A program made the position numbers and the translations under genes. Below are positions 13,429 through 27,958 of a stretch of 64,000 nucleotides of DNA, piece after piece; the stretch's first letter is position 1; each line of letters starts with the position of its first letter. The notes beneath the pieces were generated by a model, which searched no databases, was not told the origin of the DNA, and worked only from the letters and a program-made list of their open reading frames with translations. Source of the DNA: Gammaproteobacteria bacterium (GTDB lineage: Bacteria; Pseudomonadota; Gammaproteobacteria; Steroidobacterales; Steroidobacteraceae); NCBI GenBank assembly GCA_030831085.1, contig JAURLT010000062.1, positions 1 through 64,000 of the forward strand. The letters are read 5' to 3'.

Positions 13429-14589
13429 TCAGCGGCGCTGGTCGAACCGGCGGCCGACCATCGCCGCCGCGATGTTGACCTTCTGGATGTCGATGGCACC
13501 CCCGGCAATGCCCCAGCCCCAGGCGTCCCTCAGGCGTCGCTCCATCGGGTACTCGCGAGAATAGCCGTAGCCGCCCATCAGCTGCACGGCATTGCCGCAC
13601 ACCTCGCGGGAGATTTCGTTGGCGAAACACTTGGCCAGCGAGGAGTCGAGGATTGAAGGCAGGCCCTTTTCAGCGTTGGCCGCCGCCCTCCAGATCAGCA
13701 GACGCGCCGCCTCGACCCGCATGCGCATCTCGGCGAGGCGGATCTGCACGGCCTGGAAGTCGACGATCGGCTTGCCGAACTGCTTGCGCTCCTGGACATA
13801 CTGGACCACGTCGTCCAGCGCACCCGAGGCCTGGGCCAGGGCCATGGTGGCGTTGCCACAGCGCTCGAGGTCAAAGGCTTCCATGAGTTTCTTGAAGCCG
13901 CCGGCGGGCACTACGACGTTGTCCAGCGGGATCTCGCACTGGTCGAAATAGATGTCGGAAGACGGCACGCCGCGAAACCCCATCAGGCGTTCGCGGCCAC
14001 CGAAGGTCATGCCAGCGGTGCCCTTCTCCACGTACACCGCGCCGATGCCCTTGGGGCCAGGGTCGTCAGACAGGCGCAGGTAGACCACATAACCGTCCGC
14101 GTGGCCACCACCCGAGCACCAGCGCTTGGTCCCGTTGATGACCACCTTGTCGCCACGCACCTCGCCGCGGGTAGTGAGGTCGGTCAGGGCCGACCCGGCA
14201 TTCGGCTCGGACATCGACACCGCCACCATCTTATCCCCTCGGCAGACGGCGGGGATCACCCTTTGCTTCAGCGACTCGCTGGCGAAGTGCTCGATCGCCC
14301 TCACCGGGCCGACACATGACTCGAACACCGGGAACGCCACCGCTCCGGAGACCTTTGCCAGCTCCTCGATCACGATCAGTGCCTCGACGTTGCCAAGCCC
14401 AAGCCCCCCGTAGCGCTCCGCCACGTTGATGCCGAGAAAGCCCATCTCGGCAAACTCGCGAACCACCTCGGCCGGGGGCGCCTCATCCTCTTCTTCACAG
14501 TGCCTGGCCACACCCGGCAGGCGTTCCACGGCAAACTTGCGGGCACTCTCCTGCAGCGCCAACTGCTCCTCGGTCAGGCTGAAATCCAT
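13429..14589 (-). CDS. acyl-CoA dehydrogenase
   Basis: 386 residues with AGGAG eight bases before ATG 14589. The FAD and substrate motifs MSEPNAGSALTD and RKQFGKPI..FQA are typical, as is QLMGGYGYSREYPMERRLRDA. The MCAD-type catalytic Glu (in IYEGTSEIQ) is replaced: the segment reads IAGGAIDIQ with Gly at 363. Glu242 in FDLERCG lies where isovaleryl-CoA and long-chain dehydrogenases carry their base, so the enzyme is probably active. It should introduce an alpha,beta double bond in a CoA intermediate. Divergent from the CoA-transferase gene with 38 bases between them. Confidence 0.92.
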   Translation of the reverse strand: MDFSLTEEQLALQESARKFAVERLPGVARHCEEEDEAPPAEVVREFAEMGFLGINVAERYGGLGLGNVEALIVIEELAKVSGAVAFPVFESCVGPVRAIEHFASESLKQRVIPAVCRGDKMVAVSMSEPNAGSALTDLTTRGEVRGDKVVINGTKRWCSGGGHADGYVVYLRLSDDPGPKGIGAVYVEKGTAGMTFGGRERLMGFRGVPSSDIYFDQCEIPLDNVVVPAGGFKKLMEAFDLERCGNATMALAQASGALDDVVQYVQERKQFGKPIVDFQAVQIRLAEMRMRVEAARLLIWRAAANAEKGLPSILDSSLAKCFANEISREVCGNAVQLMGGYGYSREYPMERRLRDAWGWGIAGGAIDIQKVNIAAAMVGRRFDQRR

Positions 14590-14615
14590 CGTCACGGCTC
14601 CTTTGGATCGACGTG

Positions 14616-14621
14616 TATGAT
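14616..14621 (+). promoter_or_regulatory. -10-like element close to the CoA-transferase ATG
   Basis: TATGAT ends seven bases before the ATG at 14628, so transcription would begin at or next to the start codon and the message could be leaderless. No Shine-Dalgarno is visible before this ATG. The -35 is not evident. Confidence 0.35.
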
Positions 14622-14627
14622 TATCGC

Positions 14628-15824
14628 ATGGCTGAACTTCCGATCCTCGAGGGAATACGCGTCCTGGACTATGGCCGCTACGTGGCGGGTCCCTACTGTG
14701 CCACCCTGCTCGGTTACCTGGGTGCCGAGGTAATTCGGGTGGAAAAGCGAGGCGGCGGCGAGGATCGCTACATCGCGCCCGTCTGCGATAACGGCGAGGG
14801 CGGCGTGTTCCTCCAGACCGGCTGCAACAAGCAATCCCTGACCCTCGACCCCATGAGCGAGGAGGGCCGTGAGGTGACCCGGCGCCTGGTCCGCAGTGCT
14901 GACGTGGTGGTGGCCAACCTGCCGCCCTCCGCACTGACCGCAATGGGCCTGGACTATCCCAGCCTGGAGGCCCTGAATCCGAGGATCGTGCTCGCCAGCC
15001 AAACGGCCTTCGGCGACCGCGGGCCCTATGCTGCCCGGGGGGGATTCGACGGCACCGGCCAGGCCATGTCCGGGGCCATGTATATCACCGGCACACCAGG
15101 CCAACCGGTCAAGGCTGCGGCACCCTACGTCGACTACTCCACCGCGGTGCTGGCCGCCTTCGGGGTACTGGCTGCGCTGATGGAGCGGGCCCGTTCCGGT
15201 CGGGGCCAGCAGGTCAGCGGCAGCCTGCAGGCCACTGCCCTGTCCGTCTTCGCCTCGCACCTGATCGAGCAGGGCGTCGCGCGTACCGACCGGGTGGGCA
15301 CCGGCAACACGGTTCAGACCTCCTCACCCTCCGACGTCTTCGCGACCCGCGACGGGCATGTACTGACCCACGTGGTAGGCAACGGCTTGTTCCGGCGCTG
15401 GGCGCGACTGATGGGCGAGGAACCAGCCTGGACCGGCGACCCGCGTTTCGGGTCTGACGCGCTGCGTGGCCAGCATCGCGAACCCATCCTGGCCCGCATG
15501 CGCGCCTGGTGTGCTGAGCGCAGCAGCGCTGAGGCGATCTCCGAACTCGAGGCCGCCGGACTGCCGGCCGGTCCGGTCTATACGCCTCAGCAGGCGCTCG
15601 ATGATCCACAGGCTGCGGCGATGGGCCTCTTCCGCCGGGTCGACGACTACCCAGGCCTGCCCCGCCCGGCGCTTATTCCAGATCTGCCGGTGAAGTTTTC
15701 CCGCTCGCCAGCCGGCATCGACCGACGCCCGCCCACGCTCGGCGAGCACACGGAAACCATCCTCGCCAGTCTCGGTTACGATACCGGCGCCATCGAGGGC
15801 CTGCGGGCGCGCGGCGTTATCTAA
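14628..15824 (+). CDS. family III CoA-transferase (CaiB/BaiF/formyl-CoA transferase family)
   Basis: 398 residues. Family features: VLDYGRYVAGPYCATLLGYL followed by GAEVIRVEK at the N terminus, the catalytic aspartate D141 in GGFDGTGQAMSG, and VSGSLQATAL. The enzyme moves CoA between carboxylic acids through an aspartyl-CoA thioester. In isoprene- and styrene-degrading bacteria a family III member acts on glutathionyl acids next to GST genes, and here three GST genes follow convergently after 4 bases. Racemase-like members are an alternative. An in-frame GTG at 14613 is a less likely start. Confidence 0.92.
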   Translation: MAELPILEGIRVLDYGRYVAGPYCATLLGYLGAEVIRVEKRGGGEDRYIAPVCDNGEGGVFLQTGCNKQSLTLDPMSEEGREVTRRLVRSADVVVANLPPSALTAMGLDYPSLEALNPRIVLASQTAFGDRGPYAARGGFDGTGQAMSGAMYITGTPGQPVKAAAPYVDYSTAVLAAFGVLAALMERARSGRGQQVSGSLQATALSVFASHLIEQGVARTDRVGTGNTVQTSSPSDVFATRDGHVLTHVVGNGLFRRWARLMGEEPAWTGDPRFGSDALRGQHREPILARMRAWCAERSSAEAISELEAAGLPAGPVYTPQQALDDPQAAAMGLFRRVDDYPGLPRPALIPDLPVKFSRSPAGIDRRPPTLGEHTETILASLGYDTGAIEGLRARGVI

Positions 15825-15828
15825 GGGC

Positions 15829-16743
15829 TTAGCTCGCAGGCGTCAGGCGATATCCCAGTCGCGGAAAGTGCACGACGATCTCGCCGATCGACGGATCGAC
15901 GCGATGCACCGCAAATTCCGTCGGACTGGAATGCACGAGCGTGCCCCGCACCCCACCGCGGCGAGTATCGTCCGGTGAAATTTCCACATCGGTCGAGCCC
16001 TTGAGCAAGGCCGCGTCCAGGGCATCGATCCCGGGGATAGGCCGCGGCGTGCCAGCACGCGCCAGGGCCAGGGCATCTCCCGCCGCCATCGGCTGTCGCC
16101 GGCCGTCACCGATCGTCGCCATGCGCCGCTCCCAGGCTTGCAGCGCATCGAAGCCCGCCAGCAGTTGCGCCGCGAGGTCCGCAAAGGCCCCCCGGGCCAG
16201 CCAGGTGAAGGGATAGGCCTGCACGTCCGCCAGGCCCGGCGCGCTGCCGCCCAGAAAGTCGGAGCCAGAGAGTTGCTGATCGAGCAGGGCAGCATGAGCA
16301 CGGAACTGCGACTTGGCATGCTCGGCCTCCTCGGCCACCGTCGCGAAGTCGATATCCGGGAACAGGTATTGACGGTCCCGACGGAATTCCTCGGGCCACT
16401 GCGGCAGCATCAGGGCCAGCGCCACCTTGAGGGCGCTGCGAAAGAACGCGTCGCTCCACTTGACCATTGCGAGCTCCAGACCGGATCCCAGCGGGAACAG
16501 CGGCGGCTTCGGCAGACGGCGTTCCAGTTCACGGGCGATCAGCTGCGAGTCGATGTACACGTCCGCGCCTGCCTGCAGGACCGGCGTACCCCGGTAACCG
16601 CCAGTGAGCGCGACCAGGTCGGCTTTAGGCGGCAGCATTGGCGTCTCGACCCATCCGTACTCGGCGCCCTTGATGCCCAGCATCAGCAGAGCCTTCTGCG
16701 TGAAGGGACTGGCGTCGTAGCTCCACAGGACCAGTTCACTCAT
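15829..16743 (-). CDS. glutathione S-transferase-like protein with C-terminal extension (GST-A)
   Basis: 304 residues. Residues 1-80 form a thioredoxin-like GST domain (WSYDASPFTQKALLML, TGGYRGTPVLQAGADVY, IDSQLIARELER). The helical domain follows to about 215. A further 85 residues include an SPDDTRRGGVRGTLV block and end GEIVVHFPRLGYR. The same three-part layout is found in GST-C at 17443-18363, so the two are paralogues. It overlaps GST-B by 8 bases. Conjugation or glutathione removal on a pathway intermediate is likely; the extra domain is not one I can name. Confidence 0.85.
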   Translation of the reverse strand: MSELVLWSYDASPFTQKALLMLGIKGAEYGWVETPMLPPKADLVALTGGYRGTPVLQAGADVYIDSQLIARELERRLPKPPLFPLGSGLELAMVKWSDAFFRSALKVALALMLPQWPEEFRRDRQYLFPDIDFATVAEEAEHAKSQFRAHAALLDQQLSGSDFLGGSAPGLADVQAYPFTWLARGAFADLAAQLLAGFDALQAWERRMATIGDGRRQPMAAGDALALARAGTPRPIPGIDALDAALLKGSTDVEISPDDTRRGGVRGTLVHSSPTEFAVHRVDPSIGEIVVHFPRLGYRLTPAS

Positions 16744-17446
16744 GAGTCTCTCCCTTGTGATCCGACATGGCCTGCACCGACCCGGCGGTCTGCCCGTACA
16801 GGAAGCGATATCCTTCCCGGTCCGCCTGACGCTCCGTGCCGAGCGCCTTGGCCCGCACCACGGCGGGCCTCGCCGCAATGGCGTCGTACCAACGACCGAC
16901 GTTCGGAAAATCCTCGATGCGCTGGCCTTGGCGTTCCCAGGTGGTCACCCAGGGCCAGGCGGCCATGTCGGCGATCGAATACTCATCGGCCAGGAAGCCA
17001 GTGTCGGCCAGTGCGCGGTCCATGACGCCGTAGAGGCGATTGACCTCGTCGGTGTAGCGTTTGATGCCATAAGGCACCTGCTCCGGTGCATAGGCCCGGA
17101 AGTGATGCGCCTGCCCCGCCATGGGCCCGAGACCGCCCACCTGCCAGAACAGCCACTTGATCACGGCGTAACGCTGGTGCAGGTCGATTGGAAGGAAACG
17201 TCCGCTGCGCTCGGCAAGGTACATGAGGATCGCACCCGATTCGAACAGCGGCAAGGGACCACCCGGCGCATCGTGGTCAACCATGGCCGGAATCTTGTTG
17301 TTGGGCGAAACGGCGAGGAACTCGGGATCGAACTGCTCACCGCGCGTGATGTCGATCGGCGTCACCCGGTACGGCAGCTCACATTCCTCGAGCATGATCG
17401 CCGCCTTGAACCCGTTCGGCGACGGGTAATAAAACAGCTCGATCAT
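16736..17446 (-). CDS. glutathione S-transferase, Nu-class/YghU-YfcG-like (GST-B)
   Basis: 236 residues. The N-terminal FYYPSPNGFKAAIMLEE, SPNNKIPAMVDHD and LFESGAILMYLAE are the glutathione-binding half; GPMAGQAHHFRAYAPE, YSIADMAAWPWV and RWYDAIAARPAV are typical of the Nu class. Members act as disulfide reductases or peroxidases with glutathione and some as transferases or etherases. The ATG overlaps the GST-C stop (ATGA), and the gene is the middle of a three-GST operon that reads GST-C, GST-B, GST-A. Confidence 0.93.
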   Translation of the reverse strand: MIELFYYPSPNGFKAAIMLEECELPYRVTPIDITRGEQFDPEFLAVSPNNKIPAMVDHDAPGGPLPLFESGAILMYLAERSGRFLPIDLHQRYAVIKWLFWQVGGLGPMAGQAHHFRAYAPEQVPYGIKRYTDEVNRLYGVMDRALADTGFLADEYSIADMAAWPWVTTWERQGQRIEDFPNVGRWYDAIAARPAVVRAKALGTERQADREGYRFLYGQTAGSVQAMSDHKGETHE

Positions 17447-18363
17447 GGGGCGCGGTTGACCCGATAGCCGAAGCGGGGAAAGTGCACCACCACCTCACCG
17501 GTCTCCGGTGTCTGCCGACGAATGGCCACTTCCAGGTCGGTCAGGGTGACCAGCTCACCCTCGACGGGAATGCGCCCGTAGTCGTCTGGGGTTACAGTCA
17601 CCCTTGCTCCAGTCTCGAGCCCCAGCGGGTCGTCGACCTGAACGCCCCCGGCCGGCAGCGGCTCGGCCCCCCGCGCAGCAGCGAGCGCCGCCGAGGCGTC
17701 CAGTTCGGTGCGGCGGCCTTGACCGATCCTCTGCATGCGCTCCTCCCAAGCCCGCAGGTTCGTGAAAGGCTCCAACAGTCGCGCGGCGTCGCCGATGTTG
17801 CCGCGAGCCATCCAGACCGGGAAGAAGGCGTTGATGTCGGCCCAGCCGGGGCGCTCGCCCAACAGGTAGGCACGACCGTCCGCCAGCATGCTTTCCAGCA
17901 GCACCAGGTTGGCGCGCAACTGCGTGTACAGGTGGGGAATATCCTGTTCCAGCCGATCGAAGTCCATGAAGTTGAAGAAGCCCTTGCGGTCCTCGATCAC
18001 CTCGGACGGAATGAGGGACTTGTTGAGCCCCATCGAGAGCCCGGCCCCCGGGTCAAAGAAGCTGCGGTCGCTCCACGCACCCACGGCCATCGCCAGCCCA
18101 GGATTGCAATCCGGAAACAGGCTCGGCTCCGGATGTCGCCGCTCGAGTTCGAGGGCGATGAGCCGAGTATCGCAATACACGTCCGCACCCACCTGCAGGA
18201 CCGGGACCTTGCGGTAGCCACCGGTCAGGGGCATCAAGGCCGGTCTCGGCATCACCATGGGCAACTGGACAGAGGACCAGGGAAGGCTCTTGAGGCCGAA
18301 TACCAGCCGGATCTTCTCGGCAAAGGGCGAGGGATCGTGATGATGCAGGATCAGGTCTGCCAT
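17443..18363 (-). CDS. glutathione S-transferase-like protein with C-terminal extension (GST-C)
   Basis: 306 residues. The thioredoxin-like domain shows HHHDPSPFAEKIRLVFG, TGGYRKVPVLQVGADVY and CDTRLIALELERRHP, the helical domain runs to about 220, and the C-terminal extension contains TPDDYGRIPVEGELV and ends GEVVVHFPRFGYR. It is a clear paralogue of GST-A. It is the first gene of the minus-strand GST operon, divergent from the Rieske oxygenase, and its upstream region carries operator 2. A TTGACT -35-like sequence lies inside that operator. Confidence 0.85.
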   Translation of the reverse strand: MADLILHHHDPSPFAEKIRLVFGLKSLPWSSVQLPMVMPRPALMPLTGGYRKVPVLQVGADVYCDTRLIALELERRHPEPSLFPDCNPGLAMAVGAWSDRSFFDPGAGLSMGLNKSLIPSEVIEDRKGFFNFMDFDRLEQDIPHLYTQLRANLVLLESMLADGRAYLLGERPGWADINAFFPVWMARGNIGDAARLLEPFTNLRAWEERMQRIGQGRRTELDASAALAAARGAEPLPAGGVQVDDPLGLETGARVTVTPDDYGRIPVEGELVTLTDLEVAIRRQTPETGEVVVHFPRFGYRVNRAP

Positions 18364-18391
18364 ACCGCTGGACTCTACACCGCAACCGCCC

Positions 18392-18417
18392 AAAAAAACA
18401 GTCAAGCCTGTTTATTT
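18392..18417. promoter_or_regulatory. operator 2: AAACAG-N6-CTGTTT inverted repeat
   Basis: AAAAAAACAG and CTGTTTATTT with a six-base spacer (TCAAGC); nine of ten arm positions are symmetrical. The right arm CTGTTTATTT is identical to that of operator 1. It sits between the divergent GST operon and the Rieske/thiolase operon. Confidence 0.75.
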
Positions 18418-18477: not shown

Positions 18478-19689
18478 ATGGACGCGCAAACCGTGGAAAG
18501 GCTCAAGGCCGGCATGCGCTACGAGGCCGACCGCACCGCGCCGCCCGAGGGCTTCCCAAAGTTACCCGTGATACCCGGTGGACGCTACACGGACCCGGGA
18601 TTCCAGGCGCTGGAGCGTGAGTATCTGTGGCGCCGGGCCTGGCTGTATGCCTGCCATCTCGACGAAATTCCCGAGCCAGGCAGTTTCTACCTGTTCCGAC
18701 GCACGGGTTCGCCGATCCTCGTCGTCCACGGCAAGGACGGCGTGGTCCGTGCCTTCTACAACACCTGCCGCCATCGCGGCGCACCACTGGTGAAGACCTG
18801 CACGGGCAAGGTCGACGGACTGGTCTGCGGCTATCACGGCTGGACCTACTCGCTGGACGGCAAATTGATGAACCTGCGCGACAAGCGCGACTTTGTCGAC
18901 CTGCGCATGGAGGACTACCCCCTGGTGTCAGTGCGTTGCGAGCGCCTCGGCAACTGGATCTTCGTCAACGAGGACCCGGACGCCGAGCCGCTGCTGCAGC
19001 ACCTCGGTCGCATGCCCGGATACCTGGAGCAGATCCAGCCCGATCAGGTGCGCCATGTCGATCGCCGCTCGTACCCCGTGAAGTGCAACGTGAAAGTACT
19101 GCTCGATGCCTTCATGGAGGTCTATCACCTCAAGTCGATCCACCAGAACACCGTTGACCGTTTCCTGGATCATCGGGGTACCAACATCACGCTGTGGCCG
19201 CGTGGGCACTCGCTGATGATCACGCCGAATCGCCGGCCCGACTGGCAGGACCCCGGTACGCGCGGCATGCGCCGGATCGAAACCGCGACGGAAATCACCT
19301 TGTCCAACAATCCGTCCTTCATGTTTTATCCCAATCTGGTCACGCCGGTGGACGCCACCGGCAACCCGTTCCTGCTGTTCTGGCCCACCGGAGATCGGGA
19401 CATGGAGATCGAGGTCATCTGGTTCGCGCCGGACTGGGGTGACGGCCCGCCCGACCCGCTCTGGGAAACGCGCATCAGCAATTTCGAGCGCATCCTCGAG
19501 GAGGACACGCAGTTCGCCGGACAGATCCAGGAATCGGTCGAATCACAGGCCTTCGCCGGCGTCACCCTCAACTATCAGGAGCGTCGCATCTATCACTGGC
19601 ATGAGGAACTGGATCGCCGCATCGGGCCGGAGCGGATCCCCGAACACCTCAGGGTGCAGCCCATGCTCGCCGACTGGGTCGAGCGCTGA
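18478..19689 (+). CDS. Rieske non-heme iron oxygenase, alpha subunit (oxygenase 1)
   Basis: 403 residues from ATG 18478 with GGGAG upstream; the open frame to 17482 is a shadow over GST-C. The Rieske motif is C97-R-H99 and C117-G-Y-H120, and the mononuclear iron site has H217 and H222 in EVYHLKSIH. The catalytic domain ends around LNYQERRIYHWHEELDRRIG. No beta subunit gene is adjacent, so an alpha-only trimer or hexamer is likely. It should dihydroxylate, monohydroxylate or demethylate a ring or side chain. It leads a plus-strand operon with the HMGS-like, thiolase and AhpD-like genes. Confidence 0.94.
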   Translation: MDAQTVERLKAGMRYEADRTAPPEGFPKLPVIPGGRYTDPGFQALEREYLWRRAWLYACHLDEIPEPGSFYLFRRTGSPILVVHGKDGVVRAFYNTCRHRGAPLVKTCTGKVDGLVCGYHGWTYSLDGKLMNLRDKRDFVDLRMEDYPLVSVRCERLGNWIFVNEDPDAEPLLQHLGRMPGYLEQIQPDQVRHVDRRSYPVKCNVKVLLDAFMEVYHLKSIHQNTVDRFLDHRGTNITLWPRGHSLMITPNRRPDWQDPGTRGMRRIETATEITLSNNPSFMFYPNLVTPVDATGNPFLLFWPTGDRDMEIEVIWFAPDWGDGPPDPLWETRISNFERILEEDTQFAGQIQESVESQAFAGVTLNYQERRIYHWHEELDRRIGPERIPEHLRVQPMLADWVER

Positions 19690-19692
19690 GCG

Positions 19693-21129
19693 ATGGCCGG
19701 GATTAGTTCTCTGGGCTGTTACCTGCCGCGACTGCGACTGTCGCGGCAGACCATCACCGAAGCGATGGGCTGGCTCGGCCAGGGCAACTCGCGGGCCAAG
19801 GGTGAGATCGCGACCTGCAACTGGGATGAGGACAGCCTCACCATGGGGGTGGAAGCCGCGCGCATCGCCCTGTCCGCCCTGCCGCACGCCGAGCTTGATG
19901 CGCTGACTTTCGCCTCGACCACGGCTCCTTTCGCCGATCATGCCAATGGGGTGGTCCTGGCGACGGCCCTCGGCCTCGATGCCTCGCTGCGGGTCAGCGA
20001 TGCTGGTGGTTCGCAGCGCGCAGGCACCAGCGCCCTGGCGGCTGCCCTGGCAGGGGCAGACGGCGGTCGCGCTTCGCTGGTGGTAGCCGCCGATCAGCGC
20101 CTGGGCAAGCCGGGAAGCCCGCAGGAACTCCAGTATGGCCACGGCGCCACCGCGGCAGTGACCGGCACCGGGCACGGTCTCGCGGAATACCTGGGCGCCG
20201 AGCATCTGGCGGCAGACTTCGTCGATCACTATCGGGAGAGCAGTGCCCTTTTCGACTACGTGCTGGAGGAGCGCTGGGCGCGCGAGGCCGGCTGGAACCC
20301 GCTGGTCGGCCGAGCCGTAGGCAGGCTGCTGGGCAGGCTGGGTGTGCAGGCGGCGGAGATAGACAAGGTCGTGCTGGCCTGCCCGGCCGCAACGGCCCGC
20401 GGCGTTCTCAAGGCGACGGGCCTGCGTGGAGAAGCCCTGGTCTCGGACCGTTCAATGGAATTCGGGGACACCGGCTGCGGGCACCCGCTGCTCATGCTGG
20501 CCGGCGCGCTGGAAGACGCCAAACGGGACGAGCGAGTGCTCGTCATTGGCTTTGGTCAGGGCGCGGACGCCATCCTGCTGCGTGCCACTGGCGAGCGCCA
20601 GGCAGTAAGCTTTGGGCTGCAAGAGGCCCTCGCGACGCGGCGTGAAGAAACACATTACACCCGCTTCCTTGCCCATCAGGGCCTGCTGCCCGTGGAGTTC
20701 GGCATGCGCGCCGAGCGCGACAACCGGACCGCACAGACCGTCGCGTGGCGCAAGCACGAGGTGGTGACCGGCTTCACCGGCGGTCGGTGCCGCAGCTGTA
20801 ACGCGCTCCAGTTCCCGCTCTCGCGAGTCTGCGTGGCACCGGACTGCCGCGAAACCGATACGCAGGAGCCAGTGAGGCTGGCCGAGCTGCCGGCCAGCAT
20901 CAAGACCTTCACCGAGGATTGGCTGGCCTACTCGGCGCGACCGCCTCTGGTCTATGGCAACGTGCTATTCGAGGCGGGCGGCAATGTGTTCATGGAATTC
21001 ACCGACTTCGCCCCCGGCGAGGCCGCTGTAGGCAGACCCGTCCGGTTCATGTTCCGGATCAAGGACGTCGACAGCCGGCGCGGATTCCGTCGTTATTTCT
21101 GGAAGGCCGCTCCCGGCCTGGGGGCCTGA
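19693..21129 (+). CDS. HMG-CoA-synthase/thiolase-fold protein fused to a DUF35 (zinc ribbon/OB) domain
   Basis: 478 residues. The N-terminal 330 residues have a thiolase/HMGS fold (ISSLGCYLPRLRLSR, FASTTAPFADHANG, YGHGATAAVTGTG, ECGH-like DTGCGHPLLMLAGAL). The usual catalytic cysteine position reads DAGGSQRAGTSAL, with no Cys. From about 360 a zinc ribbon (C366, C369, C380, C385) and an OB fold follow, the DUF35 layout of thiolase and aldolase partner proteins. Together with the thiolase gene one base downstream it may form a complex in which the DUF35 domain binds the CoA substrate. Retro-aldol or thiolytic C-C cleavage is the likely overall step. Confidence 0.85.
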   Translation: MAGISSLGCYLPRLRLSRQTITEAMGWLGQGNSRAKGEIATCNWDEDSLTMGVEAARIALSALPHAELDALTFASTTAPFADHANGVVLATALGLDASLRVSDAGGSQRAGTSALAAALAGADGGRASLVVAADQRLGKPGSPQELQYGHGATAAVTGTGHGLAEYLGAEHLAADFVDHYRESSALFDYVLEERWAREAGWNPLVGRAVGRLLGRLGVQAAEIDKVVLACPAATARGVLKATGLRGEALVSDRSMEFGDTGCGHPLLMLAGALEDAKRDERVLVIGFGQGADAILLRATGERQAVSFGLQEALATRREETHYTRFLAHQGLLPVEFGMRAERDNRTAQTVAWRKHEVVTGFTGGRCRSCNALQFPLSRVCVAPDCRETDTQEPVRLAELPASIKTFTEDWLAYSARPPLVYGNVLFEAGGNVFMEFTDFAPGEAAVGRPVRFMFRIKDVDSRRGFRRYFWKAAPGLGA

Positions 21130-21130
21130 G

Positions 21131-22333
21131 ATGGCACGCGGCATCAGTGACAAGGTCGTGATCCTGGGTATGGGCTGCAGCCGCTTCGGTGAGCGCTGGG
21201 ACAGCGGCCCCGAAGACCTGATGCTGGAGGCCTTCCAGGAGTGCATAACCGACGCTGGCATCGAGCGTGACCAGTTGGAGGCCGCCTGGCTGGGTGTCTT
21301 CTATGACGAACAAAGCGTCTCGAAATCTGCCCTGCCCCTCTCCATGGCCCTGCGTTTGCCAAATATCCCTGTCACCCGTGTAGAGAACCTGTGTGCCACC
21401 GGCACCGAGGCGCTGCGCGGTGCAGCCTACGCGGTGGCTGCCGGCGCTTGCGACTTCGCCCTCGCCATGGGGGTGGAAAAACTCAAGGACACCGGCTTTG
21501 GCGGGCTGCCCGAGCGAACCAAGGGCACCTTCGAGGACCTCTGGCAGCCCGGCTTTACGCCGCCCGGGGCCTTTGCCCAGCTGGCAGCCGCCTATGCCGC
21601 CAGGCACGGCATCCCGATGGATCGCCTCAAGCGGGCCATGGCTCATGTATCGGTCAAGAGCCATGCCAACGCCGTGGCGGCCGAGAAGGCGCACCTGCGC
21701 AAGGCAATTACCGAACAACAGGTGCTGGATGCACCGATGATCGCCTACCCACTGGGCACCTTTGACTGCTGCGGGGTATCGGATGGTGCCGCCTGTGCCA
21801 TCGTCACCACGCCGGAGAAGGCGCGCGAGCTCGGCCGGCGGGATGCGGTCGCGATCAAGGCCATGCAACTGGTGCCCTCCAATGGCGTTGAGCTCTCACA
21901 CTCCTCCTGGGACGGAGCGCATACCCCGACCACCCGCGAAGCCGCGAGGCGTGCCTATGCAGAGGCTGGTGTCCGCGATCCCCGGCGGGAAATCTCCCTG
22001 ATGGAGGTGCACGACTGCTTCTCAATCACCGAGCTGGTGCTGATGGAAGACCTTGGCATGTCTGATTCGGGCAAGGCGCCGGATGACATCCTCGACGGCC
22101 GCTACGACCGCGACGGCCGCACGCCCTGCCAGACCGACGGTGGACTCAAGTGCTTCGGCCACCCGGTGGGCGCCTCGGGCTTGCGCATGGCCTATGAGGT
22201 CTATACGCAGCTGAGTGGGCGGGCGGGCGTACGCCAGTTGGCTTCGCCCAGCCTTGGACTCACCCATAACCTGGGCGGTATACCCAATCGCAACGTCGCC
22301 AGCGTGTCGATTCTCGGCTTGCTGGGCTTATAG
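21131..22333 (+). CDS. thiolase-family acyltransferase (SCP-x/lipid-transfer type)
   Basis: 400 residues. ENLCATGTEALRGAA carries the acylated cysteine (C88), EVHDCFSITELV and KCFGHPVGASG give the HDCF and GHP active-site His blocks. This is the SCP2/Ltp-like branch of thiolases used in sterol and branched-chain oxidation. It starts one base after the DUF35 fusion gene. Likely role is thiolytic cleavage of a 3-ketoacyl-CoA formed by the acyl-CoA dehydrogenase and SDR enzymes of the same region. Confidence 0.92.
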   Translation: MARGISDKVVILGMGCSRFGERWDSGPEDLMLEAFQECITDAGIERDQLEAAWLGVFYDEQSVSKSALPLSMALRLPNIPVTRVENLCATGTEALRGAAYAVAAGACDFALAMGVEKLKDTGFGGLPERTKGTFEDLWQPGFTPPGAFAQLAAAYAARHGIPMDRLKRAMAHVSVKSHANAVAAEKAHLRKAITEQQVLDAPMIAYPLGTFDCCGVSDGAACAIVTTPEKARELGRRDAVAIKAMQLVPSNGVELSHSSWDGAHTPTTREAARRAYAEAGVRDPRREISLMEVHDCFSITELVLMEDLGMSDSGKAPDDILDGRYDRDGRTPCQTDGGLKCFGHPVGASGLRMAYEVYTQLSGRAGVRQLASPSLGLTHNLGGIPNRNVASVSILGLLGL

Positions 22334-22343
22334 GGGGTTACTC

Positions 22344-22919
22344 ATGGCTGACACACTCTTCACCCGGATTCCGCGCGACGAACTGCCCGAGGGCTTTCGC
22401 CCTGCCTGGGACATGCTTAACAAGCTCACGGGCGAACCCACCTTCATCGAGGTGTTCGGGCAAGCGCCGGAACTCGTCAACCTGGTAATGAACGAGTTCT
22501 ACATGAAGACCTTTTTCGGCGGACGAGTCGAGCAGCGCTACAAGCAATTGGTGCGGCTACGGCTGTCCATCGTTCATGGCTGCCGCACCTGTAACAAGCA
22601 GAACGTGCCGGGAGCGCTGGAGGCGGGCGTCAGCCAGGCCCAGGTGGATGCCATGATCGAGGGACGCTATCCGGACGAACTGTTTACGACCGCCGAACAG
22701 GCCGTGCTCGAATACGCCGACCAGATGGTGCTGACCAACATGAACGGCCAGGTGGGACCCGAACTGTTCGGACGCCTGCGCGAGCATTTTTCCGAGCCGG
22801 ACATTCTTGAACTGGGCGTGGTCATGGCCATCGTCGCCGGCATGGCCAAGCTGTCATTCCTGCTGAACCTGGTGGAGAAGGAAGACTACTGCCCCTTCAT
22901 CCCGGGCGCGGCAGCCTGA
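22344..22919 (+). CDS. AhpD/carboxymuconolactone-decarboxylase-like protein
   Basis: 191 residues. The motif HGCRTCNKQN holds the CxxC pair of AhpD-like members, followed by a helix-rich segment (TTAEQAVLEYADQMV). Members with CxxC are alkylhydroperoxidases or thiol oxidoreductases; others are decarboxylases. The ATG is 10 bases after the thiolase stop, and this is the last gene of the oxygenase 1 operon. Peroxide protection during oxygenase turnover or an isomerase/decarboxylase step are both possible. Confidence 0.85.
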   Translation: MADTLFTRIPRDELPEGFRPAWDMLNKLTGEPTFIEVFGQAPELVNLVMNEFYMKTFFGGRVEQRYKQLVRLRLSIVHGCRTCNKQNVPGALEAGVSQAQVDAMIEGRYPDELFTTAEQAVLEYADQMVLTNMNGQVGPELFGRLREHFSEPDILELGVVMAIVAGMAKLSFLLNLVEKEDYCPFIPGAAA

Positions 22920-22932
22920 ACGGCTCGTCTCG

Positions 22933-23688
22933 CTAGAAGTTCGCTAGCGCGCCGCCGTCGACCCGCAGGCCGTAGCCGGTCACGAAAGCCGCTTCGTCCA
23001 GCGCCAGGAACAGCGCGCAGGCTGCAACGTCAGCAGGCTGCCCGAGCCGCCCCACCGGCGCCTTCTGTTCCCAGTGCTCGCGAAAGCCCGGGGCCTCGAG
23101 AAAAGGCCGGGTCATGTTGGTCACGATCACGCCCGGCTCCAGGTAGTTCACCGTGATTCGCAGCGGACCCAGGTCTACCGCCATACACTTGGACAGCCCG
23201 GCTACCGCGTGCTTGGAGGCGCCGTAGGCCGCCAGCCCAGGTCCGCCAATTTCTGACATCACCGAGCCCAGGTTGATGATGCGCCCGCCCCCGCGCTGCT
23301 TCATGGCGGCCACTGCACGTCGCGAGATCCGAAACAGGCTGCGCAGGTTGACGTCGAGCGTTCGGTCCCAGAGTTCGTCGGTCAGTTCCTCGAAAGGTGC
23401 ACTCGGCGCGATGCCGGCATTGTTGACCAGGATATCCAGCCCACCGAAGCGTGAGACTACCTCGCCGACCAGCCGCTCCGGCGCGTCGGCATCGGTCACG
23501 TCGCACTCGAGGCAGTGGCTGCCCGACACGCCCTCATACACCGCCGCCAACCCCTCGCCGGGCCGATCCACGGCCAGCACCCGTGCACCCTCGGCGAGAA
23601 ACCTCCTGGCGATGGCCTCGCCGATGCCTGTCGCGGCACCGGTTACGACAGCCACCTTGCCTACCAGCCTGCCTGCACCTGCTTCCAT
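22933..23688 (-). CDS. short-chain dehydrogenase/reductase
   Basis: 251 residues from ATG 23688, which has GGAGGG just upstream. TGAATGIGEAIA, LVNNAGIAPS, NLGSVMSEIGG and the catalytic YGASK are all canonical, and the C terminus is VTGYGLRVDGG. Probably NAD-dependent from the aspartate in LAVDRPGEG. It converges with the AhpD-like gene. The TonB receptor upstream ends in a terminator 27 bases before this gene, so it must have its own promoter or depend on read-through. Confidence 0.9.
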   Translation of the reverse strand: MEAGAGRLVGKVAVVTGAATGIGEAIARRFLAEGARVLAVDRPGEGLAAVYEGVSGSHCLECDVTDADAPERLVGEVVSRFGGLDILVNNAGIAPSAPFEELTDELWDRTLDVNLRSLFRISRRAVAAMKQRGGGRIINLGSVMSEIGGPGLAAYGASKHAVAGLSKCMAVDLGPLRITVNYLEPGVIVTNMTRPFLEAPGFREHWEQKAPVGRLGQPADVAACALFLALDEAAFVTGYGLRVDGGALANF

Positions 23689-23714
23689 GTTTCCCTCCAG
23701 ATCGATCCGATCCA

Positions 23715-23746
23715 CAAAAAGAAAGGCCGGCTTGCGCCGGCCTTTC
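23715..23746 (-). terminator. intrinsic terminator of the TonB receptor gene
   Basis: A perfect 10-bp stem (AAAGGCCGGC / GCCGGCCTTT) with a four-base loop. On the minus strand it is followed by CTTTTTG, so it ends transcripts from the receptor gene. Confidence 0.9.
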
Positions 23747-26608: not shown

Positions 26609-27958
26609 ATGACCTTTGACGTCCGCATCAATCCCGACGCTCCCGCCGATTCCCTGGAAGCCAAGCGACCCTCGGTGGACAACGGCCTCACGGTGCTGGA
26701 TCCCGCCCGCTACTACTCACGAGAGTTCATGCAGAAAGAATGGGAGCGGCTGTGGCCCCGGGTGTGGCTGCTGGCGGGCGTCACCTCGGACCTCCCCGAG
26801 GAGGGCGACTACGTTACTTCTGACTTCGGGCACGAACAGTTCCTGCTGGTGCGCCAGAAGGACGGCGGCATCAAGGCCTTCTACAACGTCTGCCCGCACC
26901 GGGCGAACCGCATCGCCCTCAACGAGCGCGGCAGCGTGGCCCAGTTCACCTGCGCCTTCCATGGCTGGCAGTTCCACTGCGACGGCCGGCTGAAGGGCAT
27001 CACCGACGAAGAAACCTTCGCACCAGCGCTGGTTGCCCACCGCCCGGGCATGACCGAGGTGCGCTGCGACCAGGTGGGCGGCCTGATCTTCATCAACATG
27101 GACGGCAAGGCCCCGCCGCTCAAGCAGTGGATTGGCCTGCCCGAGGGTTATATCGAGAACTATGAAATCGACAAGATGCATTGCGTACGCCACGTGCGCA
27201 GCACCTGGGACGCGAACTGGAAGGTCGGGTTGGATTCTTTCTACGAGACCTATCACCTGCCGCACATTCACCCGCAGACGCAGGGCGTGATGGACGATTT
27301 CAGCCAGCTTGATCTGTATCCCAACGGCTTCCAGCGCATGATCGTGCCCCTGTGCATGAAATCGCACCGCATCGCGGACCAGGACACGGTGGACGCCGGG
27401 CTGCGTTTCATGATGCAGGACGCTGGCATGGACCCGGACAGCTTCAAGGGCAATGCCCGCGAGGTGCGCGCGGCCGTCCAGCAGTCCAAGCGGGAGCGGG
27501 CAAAGCGGCTGGGTCTTTCGCACTACGAGAAGTTCACCGACGGCCAGTTGACCGACAGCTGGGCCACCGGGTTTTTCCCCAACGTGCAGATCGGCATGCA
27601 CCCGGAGGGCGTGTTCATCATGCGCTTCCTGCCTCACCCTGACGACCCCAACAAGTTCTACTACGACAACCTGACCATGTACCGCTACGTTGAAGATCCT
27701 AACTACAACGTGCCGGCGTGGATGGGGCTCCCGGAAGGCACCGACGTCACCGGGCGGGTGCGCCCGAACATCGAACACGTACCCGAGGGGACCAAGCCCG
27801 ACTTGGGCGAGGTGCTGGACCAGGACGTGGAACTGGTGGCCGCGGTGGGTGCCGGATCCCGCTCACGCGGGTTCCGCGGTCCGCTCTGGGGAGAGCAGGA
27901 AGTGCGTATCCGGCATTATCACCGGGAGATCGACCGCTACGTCAACGGCGAGAAGTAA
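26609..27958 (+). CDS. Rieske non-heme iron oxygenase, alpha subunit (oxygenase 2)
   Basis: 449 residues. The Rieske motif is C95-P-H97 and C115-A-F-H118; the iron site has H216 and H221 in TYHLPHIH. It is longer than oxygenase 1 and only distantly like it, so it is not a recent duplicate. No beta subunit or reductase gene follows. The gene stands alone behind operator 3 and ends overlapping the MBL gene tail to tail by 17 bases. Likely the first or a late hydroxylation of the compound taken up by the divergent TonB receptor. Confidence 0.94.
   Translation: MTFDVRINPDAPADSLEAKRPSVDNGLTVLDPARYYSREFMQKEWERLWPRVWLLAGVTSDLPEEGDYVTSDFGHEQFLLVRQKDGGIKAFYNVCPHRANRIALNERGSVAQFTCAFHGWQFHCDGRLKGITDEETFAPALVAHRPGMTEVRCDQVGGLIFINMDGKAPPLKQWIGLPEGYIENYEIDKMHCVRHVRSTWDANWKVGLDSFYETYHLPHIHPQTQGVMDDFSQLDLYPNGFQRMIVPLCMKSHRIADQDTVDAGLRFMMQDAGMDPDSFKGNAREVRAAVQQSKRERAKRLGLSHYEKFTDGQLTDSWATGFFPNVQIGMHPEGVFIMRFLPHPDDPNKFYYDNLTMYRYVEDPNYNVPAWMGLPEGTDVTGRVRPNIEHVPEGTKPDLGEVLDQDVELVAAVGAGSRSRGFRGPLWGEQEVRIRHYHREIDRYVNGEK

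Follow-up and report, generated by a model that had tools for sequence, protein, structure and literature searches.

A fused HMG-CoA synthase-like/DUF35 protein without HMG-CoA synthase catalytic residues and its partner thiolase: a probable two-gene thiolase complex

Two adjacent genes in a genome of the Steroidobacteraceae probably encode a single enzyme, a thiolase complex of the archaeal and PhlACB kind in which the A and B subunits are fused and which would cleave a beta-ketoacyl-CoA thiolytically. The arrangement is a variant of complexes already known, set apart by the fusion and by its catabolic setting; it is ordinary in its parts but widespread and systematically misnamed. The first gene is annotated 'HMG-CoA synthase', '3-oxoacyl-ACP synthase III' or 'OB-fold protein'. 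Such names conceal a probable thiolase subunit. Many pollutant-degrading bacteria carry the pair, which provides natural two-gene enzymes for studying a dead paralogue retained as a scaffold.

The locus

The DNA analysed (the window) is a stretch of 64,000 nucleotides from Gammaproteobacteria bacterium, positions 1–64,000 of the forward strand of contig JAURLT010000062.1 (assembly GCA_030831085.1). The first gene encodes a single chain of 478 residues in which an HMG-CoA synthase (HMGS) fold is joined to a DUF35 zinc-ribbon/OB domain; the thiolase gene follows after a gap of one base (Table 1). A previous sequence-only reading had correctly placed the two genes, the DAGGSQ motif of the fusion (residues 103–108) and Cys88 of the thiolase, which lies in ENLCATG. 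The genome holds one copy of each gene, and no other HMGS-like match was found in it at E ≤ 1e-5.

Table 1. Positions of the pair, its domains and neighbouring genes in the window
Feature	Position	Strand	Remarks
Fusion ORF	19693–21129	+	478 residues
HMGS/KAS-III-like half of fusion	19693–20727	+	Residues ~1–345; Gln108, Thr76 and Ala229 replace catalytic Cys, Glu and His
Zinc ribbon of DUF35 domain	20773–20859	+	Residues ~361–389; Cys366, Cys369, Cys380, Cys385
OB fold of DUF35 domain	20860–21114	+	Residues ~390–474; profile match to 6esq_E and PhlB
SCP2/archaeal-type thiolase	21131–22333	+	400 residues; Cys88, His294 (HDCF), His344 (GHP); NCBIfam PRK06157
Rieske oxygenase alpha subunit	18478–19689	+	Pfam Rieske and Ring_hydroxyl_A; 3 bases upstream of fusion
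Carboxymuconolactone decarboxylase-like (CMD) protein	22344–22919	+	Pfam CMD; 10 bases after thiolase; in 17/47 loci
Acyl-CoA dehydrogenase	13432–14943	-	ORF start uncertain; in 32/47 loci
CaiB-type (family III) CoA-transferase	14613–15824	+	PF02515, E = 7e-110; CaiB in 24/47 loci
Short-chain dehydrogenase (SDR), candidate 3-hydroxyacyl-CoA dehydrogenase	22933–23715	-	SDR in 30/47 loci
Second Rieske oxygenase alpha subunit	26609–27958	+	In 21/47 loci

Relationships of the two proteins

Conservation was assessed in 61 aligned fusions, from the window, 46 loci and 14 plasmid loci, and in 60 aligned thiolases. L003 and L004, which duplicate L069 and L073, do not enter these alignments. ORF selection or clustering also removed the L069 and L084 fusions from the 61; both were Cys-less when their loci were read, and their thiolases are included among the 60. 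The two plasmid loci read last lie outside these counts.

The fusion scores 129.7 bits against the HMG-CoA synthase model PRK04262, far under the cut-off of 244. The nearest sequences of known structure are those of PhlA (9skh, E = 3e-25; 5m3k, E = 2.8e-19), followed by 6esq_I (E = 4.8e-13), the HMGS subunit of an archaeal thiolase/HMGS complex, and the C-terminus of the fusion matches the DUF35 chain of that same complex. An AlphaFold2 model of the fusion (pLDDT 92.6, pTM 0.93) was used for a Foldseek search, in which the top ten rows were all A subunits of PhlACB, of the archaeal HMGS/DUF35/thiolase complex or of MucABC. VIA-align gave the model Z scores of 43.3 with PhlA, 43.1 with the archaeal HMGS and 40.9 with MucABC.

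The sequence-only reading held that the fusion keeps the zinc-ribbon/OB domain, a claim that is weak on the single sequence but clear with a family profile. Pfam matches to the window fusion alone fall below the cut-off (zf-ChsH2, E = 0.003; OB_ChsH2_C, E = 0.024). A profile of 47 relatives matches the DUF35 chain 6esq_E with E = 1.8e-14 over profile positions 352–474 and PhlB with E = 1.7e-9; a Pfam scan of these 47 detects OB_ChsH2_C in 38 of them and zf-ChsH2 in 32. A search of the window's own genome with OB_ChsH2_C gave no match, missing even the domain of the fusion, which makes it a poor guide to further DUF35 genes. The set of four zinc-binding Cys residues is incomplete in 14 of the 61 fusions (L005, L006, L007, L008, L009, L091, L093, L095, L098, L099, L100, L104, L112 and L114), and zinc therefore seems, on this alignment, to be dispensable in some lineages.

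The thiolase matches its NCBIfam model with 649.6 bits (cut-off 403). Its nearest relatives of known structure are 7yvy, chain A of the archaeal complex (6esq_A, E = 1.4e-48), SCP2-thiolase and BbsB, with PhlC a partial match only. The catalytic residues are intact throughout: none of the 60 sequences lacks Cys88 or the HDCF His, and the GHP His is found in each of the 59 that extend to it, the other being truncated.

These relationships bear on an alternative in which the pair forms a biosynthetic or acyl-transfer complex like PhlACB, with the thiolase moving acyl groups between acceptors or forming C–C bonds. PhlA is the closest A subunit in both fold and sequence, and thiolases are reversible; we count both points in favour. 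The thiolase itself argues for something else, since its closest matches are the CoA thiolases 7yvy, 6esq_A, SCP2 and BbsB. The active site of PhlC (PMC6392133) contains Tyr298, at a position that by spacing would correspond to the HDCF His of all our thiolases. The genes around the pair are, in addition, catabolic, and we consider this alternative improbable.

The degenerate HMGS site

In a phmmer alignment with 6esq_I the column of HMGS Cys114 holds Gln108 of the fusion; counting along this alignment places Thr76 in the Glu82 column and Ala229 in that of the catalytic His. Among the 61 fusions the Cys column contains Gln in 27, Leu in 19, Arg in five, Ala in three, Ser in two and five singletons, and is never Cys. 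At the Glu position 57 sequences have Thr and none has Glu, and His is found at its column in one sequence (L100), possibly through an alignment shift. The sequence-only reading had stated that the catalytic Cys was lost, which is confirmed, but the loss is wider than it described, with Cys, Glu and His all replaced and no catalytic residues of the fusion's own at the HMGS columns. A true HMG-CoA synthase serving mevalonate synthesis was rejected because all three catalytic residues are gone. The Cys-less state and the adjacency to the thiolase both hold in relatives down to ~30% identity and so are not due to chance.

Around this site Thr76, Asp103, Ser107 and Arg109 are nearly invariant among the fusions, so some function, binding or other, may persist at the dead site. 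Such conservation favours some binding role for the dead half. Alternatively, the HMGS-like half might itself still be active, for example as a KSQ-like decarboxylase acting through Gln108 or a site centred on Ser107. KSQ domains carry Gln in place of Cys, the replacement also seen in the window fusion and in FabH C112Q structures (9ka5 is among the Foldseek matches), and the four conserved residues would fit a working site. The Gln is not conserved across the fusions, however, and the His is gone from 60 of 61, which makes retained activity a very doubtful explanation. The KSQ-like decarboxylase was rejected specifically on the requirement for a conserved Gln, found in only the 27 fusions counted above.

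Co-occurrence and adjacency of the pair

The fusion is present in 48 of 296 genomes of the order (E ≤ 1e-20) and the thiolase in exactly the same 48 (E ≤ 1e-60). In every one of these the two matches share contig and strand and are adjacent, separated by 4–55 bases in 47 genomes and by 284 in the other. Wider samples contain the fusion in 10 of 369 genomes of the class and 10 of 398 of the phylum.

The thiolase gene lies directly downstream of the fusion in 48 of the 50 loci that were read, two pairs of which are duplicates. The exceptions are L093, at a contig end, and L095; in both genomes the thiolase is on another contig. For L095 the genome is G790, where the separate thiolase is L122, and the unlinked thiolase of G925 contains one in-frame TGA. 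Named plasmid records gave 15 annotated bacterial and archaeal stretches, in all of which the thiolase adjoins the fusion, and one further record without annotation. In the Haloferax record the thiolase is upstream.

Median identity among the relatives is 0.44 for the HMGS half, 0.48 for DUF35 and 0.66 for the thiolase, the fusion being the more divergent partner. Distances for fusion and thiolase correlate with r = 0.93 over 58 pairs, a value expected for any adjacent pair and no sign of contact.

Gene neighbourhood

The neighbouring genes suggest the logic of beta-oxidation, in which thiolysis would be the natural place for the pair. Of the 47 loci counted, 18 have a Rieske alpha subunit gene immediately before the fusion on its strand, and 26 contain a Rieske protein. 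The CaiB-type CoA-transferase is likely to activate the substrate acid. Its ORF overlaps the over-extended ORF of the dehydrogenase. In the 47-locus count the gene was displaced by an overlapping ORF, and the window itself is not scored for CaiB. The window cluster showed no hydratase gene. The named plasmids have MaoC/ECH, SDR, acyl-CoA dehydrogenase and CaiB genes beside the pair.

A TonB receptor is also encoded near the pair in the window. Three GST-like genes lie in a row at 15832–18405 on the minus strand, opposite to the operon; GST-like genes occur in 16 of 47 loci. On two Rhodococcus plasmids and one of Mycobacterium avium (L115, L116 and L117) genes for a CoA ligase and a two-subunit Rieske dioxygenase precede the pair, an arrangement that recalls the ibuprofen ipf genes. 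Naming the substrate from the Rieske genes was tried and abandoned, the nearest solved structures (carnitine monooxygenase and biphenyl dioxygenase, ~90–110 bits) being too distant.

A relative of the pair in an oestrogen cluster

Plasmid p3 of Novosphingobium sp. ES2-1 (L105) encodes a fusion ~29% identical to that of the window, with Leu at the Cys site, and a thiolase with all catalytic residues. The gene order is acyl-CoA dehydrogenase, SDR, fusion, thiolase, two ECH-type genes, one hypothetical, lipid-transfer protein, OB-fold protein, P450 and TetR; on the other side are two VOC genes, an indolepyruvate oxidoreductase, an acyl-CoA dehydrogenase and two MaoC genes. This order matches that given for the edc operons of N. 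tardaugens (PMC7793797; PMC8700777). There (Novosphingobium, now Caenibius, tardaugens) the HMGS-like gene EGO55_13555 is next to the thiolase gene EGO55_13550; we liken the former to the fusion by annotation and gene order. In Ibero et al. (2020) EGO55_13555 is an 'HMG-CoA synthase' left without a role, a condensation making no sense in the oestrogen pathway. The same pair and gene order in ES2-1 give it a testable one.

The L105 operon (L105:9966-18102) holds a thiolase-type pair together with an Ltp-like protein that has a YDAF motif and no Cys, and that is accompanied by its own DUF35 protein. From their sequences the latter two look like an aldolase pair, so that thiolase-type and aldolase-type DUF35 pairs would stand side by side.

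The sequence-only reading had linked the window pair to steroid side-chain aldolases, and an Ltp2/Sal-like retro-aldol enzyme acting on a side chain, of a steroid or otherwise, would indeed share with ChsH2–Ltp2 and Shy–Sal a DUF35 partner and an SCP2-like fold, and has a relative in an oestrogen cluster. The active-site motifs disagree. Ltp2 has YDHF and Sal YDCY, with Tyr at the first position, and in Sal a Gly replaces the nucleophile (PMC12329534). The YDxF/Y Tyr and the Gly are both absent from our thiolases, in which HDCF and Cys88 are universal and to which His344 adds the GHP motif in the window, so this part of the earlier proposal is unsupported. Since L105 carries its Ltp-like protein apart from the pair, the aldolase type appears to be a different gene. 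We rejected the steroid side-chain aldolase on these motifs and regard a retro-aldol role as extremely unlikely.

Proposed mechanism

Thiolytic cleavage by a single complex is the explanation we prefer. In the window, the CaiB CoA-transferase would activate the substrate acid, and the Rieske oxygenase, the acyl-CoA dehydrogenase and the SDR would oxidise it. Like PhlB, the DUF35 domain may hold the dead HMGS half against the thiolase dimer. The dead half would serve as a scaffold or line the CoA/acyl cavity, and the thiolase Cys88 would be acylated and then deacylated by CoA, in a thiolytic (retro-Claisen) cleavage of the beta-ketoacyl-CoA.

We also raise, tentatively and as less probable than not, the idea that the dead HMGS pocket is a substrate chamber, in which the site formed by Thr76, Asp103, Ser107 and Arg109 holds the ring of a bulky acyl-CoA while the thiolase cuts. 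If true, these enzymes would form a widespread and so far unnamed thiolase class acting on bulky beta-ketoacyl-CoAs, to which one unassigned step of the oestrogen 4,5-seco pathway would belong.

Comparison with known systems

No description of a fused HMGS–DUF35/thiolase pair as a complex was found in the mostly open-access literature searched. The ibuprofen genes ipfDE (thiolase and OB-fold protein) are a possible analogue, judged by description. For the auxin iad locus, IadG is annotated as an acetyl-CoA acetyltransferase, and the passages available on the locus do not mention a fused partner.

The aldolases Ltp2–ChsH2 and Sal–Shy resemble the pair in combining an SCP2-thiolase fold with a DUF35 partner; they differ in the Tyr-based motif, in lacking an HMGS-like half and, in Sal, in the Gly at the nucleophile site. 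Beta-oxidation by CoA-transferase and dehydrogenase is also the setting of the benzoylsuccinyl-CoA thiolase BbsAB. This enzyme (7pxp) likewise pairs a thiolase with DUF35, but the latter is a separate protein and there is no HMGS-like half. The streptococcal MucABC (9vbo, 9vbt), called an acyltransferase in its PDB title, is alike in the fold of its A subunit.

Closer is the archaeal HMGS/DUF35/thiolase complex (6esq), built of the same three parts, with a thiolase near that of the window and the DUF35 chain nearest to ours. Its HMGS is catalytic (Cys114 and Glu82) and serves mevalonate synthesis, whereas the window fusion is dead and genes of this kind lie in catabolic clusters.

PhlACB (MAPG acetyltransferase/Friedel–Crafts acylase; 5m3k, 9skh) provides a precedent for pairing an active thiolase with a dead HMGS subunit, since PhlA is reported to lack the catalytic Cys and Glu and PhlC alone is catalytic in a Phl(A2C2)2B4 complex (PMC6392133). 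The earlier proposal of a C–C-cleaving complex with a non-catalytic fused half is supported in this way by homology: the three closest solved complexes have the composition predicted for the pair, and the A subunit of PhlACB is also dead. The features common to PhlACB and the archaeal complex, an HMGS-fold A part, a DUF35 B part and a co-encoded Cys thiolase C, are present in the window; three separate polypeptides are not. PhlACB has Cys88 in its thiolase-fold subunit, and a single continuous cavity runs through its A, B and C subunits. It differs in its three separate chains, in CoA-independent acyl transfer and in serving antibiotic synthesis, whereas the window pair joins A and B in one chain, retains the HDCF His of CoA thiolases and stands in a catabolic setting.
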